DNA of 25,151 nucleotides from Armatimonadota bacterium. GTDB lineage: Bacteria > Armatimonadota > JAAZEB01. The DNA is taken from NCBI GenBank assembly GCA_012841485.1, contig DUUU01000287.1, forward strand, positions 1 to 25,151. Reading direction: 5' to 3'. Numbering within the stretch: position 1 is the first letter of the stretch; the number at the start of each line of letters is the position of its first letter. Position numbers and translations under genes: made by a program. Under the pieces are notes generated by a model. The model saw nothing but the letters and a program-made list of their open reading frames with translations, searched no databases and was not told the origin of the DNA. Shown piece after piece: positions 9,413 to 12,006 of this stretch.

Positions 9413-9691
9413 ATGGCAGCAGATAAGACGCTGGCCTGCCGTGACTGCGGCACGGAGTTCGTGTTCACCGCCGGTGAGCAGGAATTCTTCGCGCAGAAAG
9501 GCTTTAGTGACCCCACGCGGTGCCCGTCCTGCCGTGCCACGCGCAAGATGGAGCGCATGCGCCAGCAGAACGACGCGATGAGCGCGCCGATGAGTGGCGG
9601 CTTCAGTAGCCGCGGACGCGACCGCGACCGCCGCGGCGGCCGCGATGACGAATTCGACTACGACGAGCGCCCGCGCCGCGGACGCTGGTAA
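9413..9691 (+). CDS. Small zinc-ribbon protein with Arg/Gly-rich tail
   Basis: The protein has 92 residues. AAAGGAGG lies about 10 nt upstream of the ATG. Residues 8-42 form a zinc ribbon: CRDCG (9-13) and CPSC (about 36-39), separated by the conserved TEFVFTAGEQEFFAQKGF stretch. This matches the 'probable zinc-ribbon domain' family (PF13451 from memory), common in several phyla and of unknown function. The rest is low-complexity and charged: Gly, Ser and Arg/Asp (SRGRDRDRRGGRDDEFDYDE), resembling RGG-type RNA-binding tails. This suggests a nucleic-acid or ribosome-associated role, but that is inference. It is monocistronic, with a strong promoter and a long leader. Its 3' side now abuts an antisense group IIC intron. 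Confidence 0.85.
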   Translation: MAADKTLACRDCGTEFVFTAGEQEFFAQKGFSDPTRCPSCRATRKMERMRQQNDAMSAPMSGGFSSRGRDRDRRGGRDDEFDYDERPRRGRW

Positions 9692-9703
9692 CGGTCGGAT
9701 CCA

Positions 9704-10044
9704 ATCGGGTAGGCGGGGTCGTTGCCGGCCCCGCCCCCCACACCAACCGGCATGCGGGTCCGCACCGGGCGGGTAGCCAGTCATCTGGCGGGAAGACAAA
9801 CCTCCTGGGATAAGCCTACGTTCTTTCGCCCCGCACCTGCTGGATCTACCGAGAGCCGGTCTTGGGAATCACGGGTGAGTTGCCCTCGGCCTACTATCCG
9901 GTTTCTGTTCGTCAGGTCGTGGCTGTGGCTCGGGCTTCCTCCGGACCCCGTCTCATGGCGATGCCCTTGCCTCCGTAACAGTTCCGATTCCCTGGACTGT
10001 AGAGGACTTTCACCTCCGAGAACGTACGCATGCCCAGCGTACAC
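9704..10044 (-). mobile_element. ORF-less group IIC (bacterial class C) intron
   Basis: Read on the minus strand, this 341-nt segment has group IIC intron landmarks. It starts GTGTACGC (10044) and folds at once as GTACGC/GCGTAC (10037-10042 with 10024-10029). It then carries GGAGGTGAAAGTCC (about 10018-10004), GGAGGAAGCCC and CCTGACGAACAG in domain I, in the same order as I recall for the Oceanobacillus iheyensis intron. Domain V is 9743-9772: a CGC triad rather than AGC, a 2-nt UG bulge, and a short UGCG-GACC-CGCA tip, all IIC traits. Domain VI is the hairpin 9712-9735, followed by CTACCCGAT with a candidate branch-point A and an AT 3' end at 9704. No maturase/reverse transcriptase ORF is present where domain IV should carry one. 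Mobility or splicing would need a protein in trans. Boundaries are inferred. Confidence 0.82.
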
Positions 10045-10049
10045 CGATG

Positions 10050-10072
10050 AAGGGAGCCCCCAGGGCACCCTT
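10050..10072. terminator. Terminator-like hairpin beside the intron 5' end
   Basis: AAGGGAGCCC (10050-10059), loop CCA, then GGGCACCCTT (10063-10072) pair at 9 of 10 positions with one A-A mismatch. In intron orientation the hairpin ends 5 nt (CATCG) before the intron start. Class C introns are known to insert just downstream of Rho-independent terminator stems, so this is probably the target. With the intron removed, the hairpin would lie about 18 nt after the zinc-ribbon stop, fitting an original terminator of that gene. The U-tract is poor. Confidence 0.55.
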
Positions 10073-10230
10073 CGCGCGTCGAGAGCCCCCTGCGCGCCTT
10101 CCACTCAGAAGCACGGCCCCTCATCCGCGCCGCCAATCGCCCACGGGAGGATCGACATACTCGCGATGAGAGGAGCTTGCATCCGGCGCGGTGAAATCGC
10201 TCTTGAACCTTCTGTGTGAGGAGACTGCGG

Positions 10231-12006
10231 TTGGGCATTCTTTCATGCTTTCGGGAGTTCGGCGCGCGGACGCGCCGTGTGGGTCAATTGCTTGTCGGCC
10301 TTTCGCTCTGCTCGTGCCTTCCCGTCGCCGCCCAGGAGGTGGCCGGTGTGCCGGGATGGCAAGTGAGAGAGCCGACCCCGGGGACGCACCGCGTCTGTAC
10401 AGAGGTGGGGGGCGCGCTCGCCGGACGGGGCAGCGTGAAGATCACGGGCCTCACCCATGAGGGGAACGCGCGCGCCTGCCTCATCCAGGAGTTCATGCGC
10501 GAGACGGCCCTGCCCACCGGCACAACATACCGATACGCCTTCTCCTATCGCACCGCTCCGGAGCTCACCGGCACGCCCATGGTGATTCTTGACTCCTACA
10601 CCCGCGAGGGCGAGAAGGGGCGCACGCAACTCGCGCTCCAGCGGCTGGAGCCCTCGATGGAATGGAAGCGTGTTGAGGGCGAGGTTCAGGTAGGCGAAGG
10701 CGTGGTACGCACGCGGCTTCTCCTCTATCTTTACGGCGCGGGCACTGTTTGGTACGACGATGCCTTCTTCGGCGAGGCCGAACCGGGCGCGGCAAACCGG
10801 TTGAAAAACGGCGGCTTCGAACCGCCTTTCTCCTCCGTGTATGACCTCGCCCCGGAGCAGCGCAGCGGGCCCGTGCGCCTGGTCGCCGGCTTCGATAACG
10901 CCGCGCTGGGCACGGTGAAGCAGATCGGCCCTGATGAGTTCTACCTCCACGCCGTCCCGGCGGAGGGCCGGCGCTCTCCCTTCCTGTGGTTCCACTTCCG
11001 GGTGGAGGGGTGTGCCGGCCGCGAGATCACCTTCCACGTCAACCCGGCGCCCTTCTCCCGCGAGGAGACTGCGGGCAACGGCACGCGCATTCCGGTCGTC
11101 AGCGAAGATGGCGAGCGCTGGACCGGCGTCACGGAGAAGTCGTGGAGCGAGGATGGAAGCTGCCTCACCTTCACGCACCGTTTCACGCGCTCGCCGGCGT
11201 GGGTCTGCTCCTTCTTCCCCTTCACAGAGGAGCATGTGACACGCTTCACCACCCGGAACGCGGCCAGTCCCTACTTCGCGGCAGGCGTGCTTGGCAAGAC
11301 TCGCGAGGGCCGGGACCTCCGCTACTACACGATCACCGACCCGGCCGTGCCGGAAGCTGAGAAGCGCGTCCTCTTCTTCACATCACTCCAGCACGATCTG
11401 GAGACGACCGGTGCGCTCGCCCTGGAGGGGATCTGCCGCTATCTTCTCTCGGATGACCCCGGCGCGGCCCGGCTTCGCCGCTCCTGCGTCACCTACGTGG
11501 TGCCGATCATGAACCCAGACGGCATCGCCGGCGGCAACCTCTACTGTCCTGTCGGGAATATGAATCGCCAGTGGGGCCTTGGCACCACGCCGGAGGTGGG
11601 GCACGTGGAGCGCTTCGCGAAGCAGCTCGCGGCGCGCGGGCGCCCGATCGATCTCTATATGGATTTCCACGGCTGGTGTACCCCGGATCACACCACCCTC
11701 TTCATGACCTTCGGCAAGGAGATCACGGACGCCGCTACCGAGTCGGACGCCCTGCGGCTGGCCGATTGCATCAAGAAGCGACTGGAGGGGAAGTCGCACA
11801 ACACCATCTGGCGCAAGATGGAGAGCTTCGTCACGTCCGGCGTGATCGACCTGCGCCGGATGGCGCCCGGGTGGATGCGCTTTGAAGCGGGCGCACGCCT
11901 GGCCTACTCCATCGAAATCTTCGGCGAGGGCGAGTGTACTCAGCAGGGCTATCTCGATTGGGGCCGGGCGTTCGCGCAGGGCATGGATGAGTTCTACGCG
12001 CGGTGA
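10231..12006 (+). CDS. Secreted M14-family zinc carboxypeptidase-like protein with N-terminal carbohydrate-binding-like domain
   Basis: Predicted exported metallopeptidase, 591 residues from a TTG at 10231, chosen because GAGGAG lies 7 nt upstream; an in-frame GTG at 10216 lacks a site. A signal peptide (about residues 17-35) ends near VAAQ. Residues about 40-200 resemble a CBM-type beta-sandwich and about 215-335 a second beta domain like the N-terminal domain of AGBL-type M14 peptidases. The catalytic domain (about 345-590) keeps the zinc ligands His388 and Glu391 (QHDLE, an HxxE) and His480 (DFHGW). It also keeps NPDG (428-431), Asn445-Arg446 and the general-base Glu562 (YSIEIFG), so it should be active. 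The usual HPGE is replaced by HDLE. The target could be peptide or cell-wall cross-links. It converges on the glycosidase with 5 nt between stops. Confidence 0.82.
   Translation: MGILSCFREFGARTRRVGQLLVGLSLCSCLPVAAQEVAGVPGWQVREPTPGTHRVCTEVGGALAGRGSVKITGLTHEGNARACLIQEFMRETALPTGTTYRYAFSYRTAPELTGTPMVILDSYTREGEKGRTQLALQRLEPSMEWKRVEGEVQVGEGVVRTRLLLYLYGAGTVWYDDAFFGEAEPGAANRLKNGGFEPPFSSVYDLAPEQRSGPVRLVAGFDNAALGTVKQIGPDEFYLHAVPAEGRRSPFLWFHFRVEGCAGREITFHVNPAPFSREETAGNGTRIPVVSEDGERWTGVTEKSWSEDGSCLTFTHRFTRSPAWVCSFFPFTEEHVTRFTTRNAASPYFAAGVLGKTREGRDLRYYTITDPAVPEAEKRVLFFTSLQHDLETTGALALEGICRYLLSDDPGAARLRRSCVTYVVPIMNPDGIAGGNLYCPVGNMNRQWGLGTTPEVGHVERFAKQLAARGRPIDLYMDFHGWCTPDHTTLFMTFGKEITDAATESDALRLADCIKKRLEGKSHNTIWRKMESFVTSGVIDLRRMAPGWMRFEAGARLAYSIEIFGEGECTQQGYLDWGRAFAQGMDEFYAR

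Follow-up and report, generated by a model that had tools for sequence, protein, structure and literature searches.

The window analysed here, the whole 25,151-nucleotide (nt) contig DUUU01000287.1 of an Armatimonadota bacterium (GenBank assembly GCA_012841485.1), carries on its minus strand a real group II intron, located between a zinc-ribbon gene and an M14 zinc carboxypeptidase gene. The element, 339 nt at 9704-10042, lacks the usual intron-borne open reading frame (ORF) and is very probably a dead copy of a mobile intron of class C (group IIC). Since the uninterrupted site and each separate lesion can be seen, and intact-looking relatives are available for comparison, the locus offers a clean case of group IIC intron decay in situ. 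It also implies that a strong domain I match and an intact-looking catalytic triad are insufficient to call an ORF-less bacterial intron functional. The copy is a new case of an already known kind, the ORF-less or decayed bacterial group II introns.

In a scan of the whole window against Rfam, the sole match above threshold was RF02001 (group-II-D1D4-3), at 9814-9962 on the minus strand with 79.9 bits (E 9.7e-15, cut-off 32); six further matches in a local scan fall far under their own cut-offs. Assignment to class C is supported by a short class C domain V containing an exact 25-nt core with the CGC triad. This core was found in at least 119 genome-contig stretches, belonging to several phyla according to their titles, and in 13 viral stretches, and among the 133 sites listed most run on to an intron-like end, ...CCGAT. 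None of the intron's three sense frames stays open for more than 86 codons, and the class C reverse transcriptase is absent from the copy, although no profile search aimed at this enzyme was made; the enzyme is optional for membership of this RNA class. The original prediction, which described an ORF-less group IIC intron between the zinc-ribbon and M14 genes, is supported in class, in ORF content and, with Pfam matches for both neighbours, in placement.

The boundaries were established by comparison with the nearest comparison genome (G001), which has 28% of sampled 31-mers in common with the window. On its contig C209 both flanks, 88 to 91% identical to those of the window, are contiguous and form an uninterrupted site reading CATCGGTTGGATT (in a longer reading, with a slash at the junction, GCGCGAAGGGAGCCCTGGGGGCTCCCTTCATCGGT/TGGATT), where the window has ...CATCGGT/GTACGC...CCCGAT/TGGATC. 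Because of a one-base ambiguity, 9705-10043 fits this empty site equally well; 9704-10042 is preferred because the relatives start with GTAYGC and end with CCGAT. The junctions of 21 relatives were gathered with a regular expression that itself required GTAYGC, so that they are not independent proof of the start, and it is the empty site that provides independent evidence for it. The original prediction had placed the 5′ end at 10044 (GTGT, 341 nt), a start that is rejected because it leaves two bases unexplained against the G001 site. The motifs it named in domains I, V and VI and at the 3′ end are all present. The intron and its parts, all on the minus strand, are the following.

9704-10042, minus strand: entire intron copy, group IIC and ORF-less, 339 nt (G001 empty site; ends matching relatives)
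10023-10042, minus strand: 5′ terminal stem, GTACGC..GCGTAC
10002-10016, minus strand: domain I motif GAGGTGAAAGTCCTC
9814-9962, minus strand: domain I to IV core (Rfam RF02001, 79.9 bits)
9934-9941, minus strand: domain I motif GAGGAAGC
9873-9885, minus strand: stub GGGCAACTCACCC of the domain I arm bearing exon-binding site 1 (EBS1), with the EBS1 loop missing (alignment with 8 relatives; test of pairing with the 5′ exon)
9774-9807, minus strand: domain IV remnant, the ORF-bearing part deleted to the first domain V bases
9742-9774, minus strand: domain V hairpin (CGC triad, UG bulge, GACC tip), with a T at 9746
9712-9735, minus strand: domain VI hairpin
9704-9711, minus strand: 3′ end TACCCGAT

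Relatives were searched for in 291 genomes of the phylum. Matches at the DNA level were obtained in 26, some of them to the domain VI end only; these searches scored few candidates per genome, one earlier search used stricter filters, and their negatives are weak. Full-length homologues with a reverse transcriptase frame, which the original prediction proposed to look for in the same genome, do exist in other genomes. Copies with the same ends in G263, G264, G046 and G047 measure 1862 to 1935 nt and carry frames of 464 to 505 codons, and a copy in G155 is 1780 nt long with an open frame of 509 codons. The G263 protein contains RVT_1 and GIIM domains; among solved structures it is closest to the GsI-IIC reverse transcriptase (E 2.9e-145), followed by another group II intron reverse transcriptase/maturase. 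A frame of 507 codons in G004 encodes a protein 70% identical to it.

Like the window copy, the introns of G263, G264, G046 and G047 start with GTAYGC, possess the domain I motifs and the CGC triad, end domain VI with TACCCGAT and are inserted after a stem-loop. Unlike it, they have all kept the EBS1 arm, a G opposite the triad and the long frame. In domain I, the copies of G004 and G260 are closer to the window than these four. Identity to the intron start in G260 reaches 85% over 165 aligned positions, and identities of 75 to 79% were obtained with G004, G046 and G260 for query stretches of 241 to 271 nt. Taken together, domains V and VI match those on contig C63 of G264 at 68 of 69 positions, with the T at 9746 as the only departure. 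In some genomes the family has multiplied: ten intron 3′ ends were found in G004, and in G047 the intron is heavily multiplied, with 29 copies of the domain VI and 3′ end string, several of them at contig ends. Contigs of Chthonomonadales (L060, L081, L102 and L103) share the domain VI string of G047, so that the phylum of the comparison genomes is presumably Armatimonadota.

Alignment with eight relatives revealed the first two of three lesions. First, domain IV has lost about 1.5 kb together with the ORF, in a deletion that runs up to the first few bases of domain V. Second, the EBS1-bearing arm of domain I, which in most relatives reads roughly GGGTGAGCYGG-loop-ACAGTGAAACCC and presumably resembles the arm of the Oceanobacillus iheyensis intron, is shortened to a 13-nt stub. 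Among the aligned loci, L221 has an arm broken by its own deletion, L224 differs in arm sequence and L233 was cut past its true 3′ end. In functional introns, the pairing of EBS1 with intron-binding site 1 (IBS1) of the 5′ exon brings the 5′ splice junction into the active site. The deleted loop behaves as EBS1: in the 10 relatives whose loop was found by a regular expression (one captured loop is longer than the others), its pairing with its own 5′ exon extends over 4.3 consecutive bases on average, compared with 2.9 when exons are swapped, an average of 4.3 being attained in 6 of 10000 shuffles. The window stub pairs with its exon over 3 bases, near the swapped-exon mean.

The third lesion is a base change in domain V, which reads CCGGTTGGT in the window and CCGGGTGGT in relatives such as loci L214 and L261. 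The changed base, the T at 9746 on the minus strand, lies opposite the final C of the CGC triad. Across 149 other domain V sites this position is occupied by G in 148 cases, by A in one and never by T; these sites are regular-expression matches, mostly in loci collected with the 25-nt pattern, which excludes this position, the set leaves out strongly divergent domain Vs and a place present in two loci may count twice. The domain V fold energies compared, -15.7 against -23.2, are for stretches of 38 and 42 nt. Complementarity of EBS1 to the exon and intact pairing of the triad, both expected of a functional intron, are therefore missing from this copy. With the arm cut away and the base opposite the triad changed, neither of which was part of the original prediction, its suggestion that the intron could be dying is borne out.

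The insertion site is itself characteristic of class C, since a stem-loop, likewise not noticed before, ends 6 nt before the intron and is also present in the uninterrupted G001 site. The flanking features are listed below.

10043-10048, minus strand: last six 5′-exon bases, ATCGGT, the expected IBS1 (position by analogy with relatives)
10049-10073, minus strand: presumed IIC target hairpin, a stem-loop preceding the intron (GAAGGGTGCCCTGGGGGCTCCCTTC)
9413-9691, plus strand: zinc-ribbon gene (Pfam zf_Tbcl; putative start codon), its stop codon 12 bases before the element
10216-12006, plus strand: M14 zinc carboxypeptidase gene (putative start codon)

Both neighbouring genes lie on the plus strand and the intron is antisense to both; a 330-codon minus-strand open frame, a candidate only, lies opposite the M14 gene. 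The 11-base-pair (bp) stem of the target hairpin is free of mismatches in G001 and contains one T-T mismatch in the window, and the 45-nt hairpin stretch folds at -25.3 kcal/mol in G001 and -18.9 kcal/mol in the window (raw energies without shuffle control). Unlike several relatives, the window has no T run after this hairpin. At 16 of the 21 relatives' junctions, the upstream 45-nt stretch folds at -20 kcal/mol or lower, again without shuffle control. Group IIC introns were described as typically inserting at intrinsic terminator motifs (PMC4424553).

The history that best accounts for these observations would begin with an intact ancestor of about 1.86 kb. It would have inserted, probably by retrohoming, immediately past the palindromic hairpin that lies downstream of the zinc-ribbon gene, in antisense orientation to this gene and after the split from G001. 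Precise loss of the intron from G001, rather than insertion in the window lineage, may also explain the empty site. Later deletions would have taken away most of domain IV, the reverse transcriptase included, as well as the domain I arm that carries EBS1, and a base change would have broken the pair at the catalytic triad. Deprived of 5′ exon recognition and of a normal active site, the copy would be capable of neither splicing nor mobility. The window copy should not splice because EBS1 is gone and the partner of the triad is changed, by analogy with the O. iheyensis intron and with RmInt1 of Sinorhizobium meliloti.

Several observations weigh against a dead group IIC intron. The Rfam domain V family gave no match even at E up to 10, a result to be read with the caution that the model may miss this subclass; the Rfam check proposed in the original prediction gave the RF02001 match for the domain I to IV core and no match for domain V. 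The fold of the 341-nt stretch, proposed there as a second check, is no better than that of shuffled sequences (z-score 0.08, 49 of 100 shuffles as good), so that its energy is uninformative. In the EBS1 test, 3 of the 10 copies score just 2 or 3, the rows are not independent (two come from G047 and two from one genus, that of G263 and G264), and a 5-bp pairing with the exon exists elsewhere in the window copy, in a 40-nt stretch of domain I. Moreover, domains V and VI are otherwise nearly unchanged, as could also be expected of a recent copy with weak activity. The z-score and the missing domain V match could further suggest a GC-rich intergenic stretch that resembles an intron by chance or convergence. 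The likelihood of this is vanishingly small given the 79.9 bits of RF02001, the exact insertion in an otherwise colinear locus and homologues 75 to 85% identical; a chance match is ruled out by the empty site together with these homologues.

The original prediction had also offered that the copy depends on a protein supplied in trans. An active ORF-less intron, spliced with the protein of another copy in the same genome, would agree with the near identity of domains V and VI to those of a relative, and such forms arise in the family, as a 660-nt copy in G115 keeps both the EBS1 arm and domain V. It would also agree with the report that bacterial ORF-less introns nearly always co-occur with related introns bearing an intron-encoded protein (IEP) (PMC4424553). 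However, the EBS1 arm is missing and the base opposite the triad is altered, the upstream long frame with a Pfam match (M14) sits on the other strand, and the G263 reverse transcriptase has no match in G001, the nearest comparison genome. Distant matches only were obtained in G003 (37% identity) and G002 (31%), of the same family as G001. Since a maturase would presumably not replace a lost EBS1, splicing with a protein in trans is unlikely, and continued activity of this copy very unlikely.

The 660-nt ORF-less relative of G115 (L220, 350-1009) makes a stronger candidate than the window copy for an ORF-less IIC intron that still works. The same genome has three reverse transcriptase matches, all partial, and a second reduced copy of 809 nt (L221, 1719-2527), in which a different deletion has fused domain I to the 3′ part of the reverse transcriptase gene. 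In G002, RF02001 matches at 42.8 bits near a contig end (L010, 1501-1661). A plasmid match (H1), covering 52% of the query in 274 nt, was taken for an ORF-less intron and discarded, being one intron's end followed by the next one's start.

Isolated ends of this intron also occur. G001, G003, G265 and G261 contain copies of the domain VI hairpin plus intron 3′ end, either identical or with 1-3 changes, that lack domain V, and in the first three only such isolated pieces of the intron were found. Because G001 has three look-alikes without domain V, the hairpin was suspected to be a mere terminator repeat, an explanation that was rejected. The hairpin-only pattern matched in 4 of 4 genomes, and its reversed control matched once each in G003 and G004, so that a bare hairpin is weak evidence. 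Of the 291 genomes, 12 contain the hairpin followed by the intron 3′ end with at most 3 mismatches, the reversed control of this pattern giving none among the matches listed. Domain V precedes the hairpin at 31 of 35 distinct sites in the collected loci and is missing at the other 4; these loci were gathered with hairpin and 3′-end patterns and do not form a random sample.

Tails without detected domain I lie at most 35 bases from the stop of a frame of at least 120 codons at 8 of 12 places, two of the 8 matching the hairpin only and the frames being open frames unverified as genes. Isolated domain VI tails in this position are found in G001 (L001, 1501-1545; L002, 1501-1550), G265 (L202) and G003 (L205), and isolated domain V-VI pieces lie 6 and 7 bases after a long-frame stop in G259 (L201, 1501-1555) and G008 (L207, 1501-1549). 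Loci L003 and L208, where the hairpin alone matches, may be unrelated terminators. G001 and G261, although of different families, have an identical stretch around a domain VI tail (L002 and L204/L229), which may reflect contamination or transfer.

These positions raise the question of whether the plus strand of domain VI, 12 bases beyond the zinc-ribbon stop codon, now acts as the 3′-end hairpin of that gene, the intron having separated the gene from its old hairpin. The plus strand at 9701-9745 folds at -26.4 kcal/mol (without shuffle control) and the tails tend to lie close to frame ends. No T run follows the hairpin, though, and the frames near tails are known as open frames only. Furthermore, group IIC introns land near gene ends anyway, so that such a position is expected without any function and no function follows from it. 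A role as 3′-end hairpin is unlikely, and would in any case be compatible with a dead intron. By extension, dead IIC introns could be whittled from the 5′ side down to domain VI tails kept as 3′-end hairpins of their neighbours, the window copy representing an early stage; this is unlikely, but if host genes do use such tails, it would describe a route from retroelement debris to regulatory sequence.

The dead intron of the window can be placed among known systems. Bacterial introns without an ORF were described as rare in 2015 (PMC4424553), a 2022 survey reported 888 of 13,041 detected introns without IEPs (PMC8919778), and group II intron fragments were described in Enterobacteriales (PMC3522654). 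A literature search combining group II intron and Armatimonadetes returned papers with neither term in title or abstract. The surveyed ORF-less introns lack the IEP as the window copy does, but, as the survey presents them, they were counted by an automated pipeline without judging ribozyme competence (PMC8919778), whereas the window copy has lost exon recognition.

Crystal structures of the O. iheyensis group IIC intron display the same CGC triad, C358-G359-C360, and an EBS1 (AUAA) paired to the UUAU of the native 5′ exon; mutation of one triad base (G359A) disturbed the active site enough to prevent binding (PMC3669008). That intron is an intact ribozyme, while in the window EBS1 is gone and the strand facing the triad is changed. 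In S. meliloti 1021, point mutations in resident copies of RmInt1 were reported to impair splicing or mobility, and a mutant in the domain V triad was used as the control deficient in splicing (PMC4496777). RmInt1 is a different intron whose copies are full-length, in contrast to the ORF-less copy described here. The two also differ in their mode of decay, since the RmInt1 study cites decay by loss of the 3′ terminus (PMC4496777), which in the window copy is the best-kept part.
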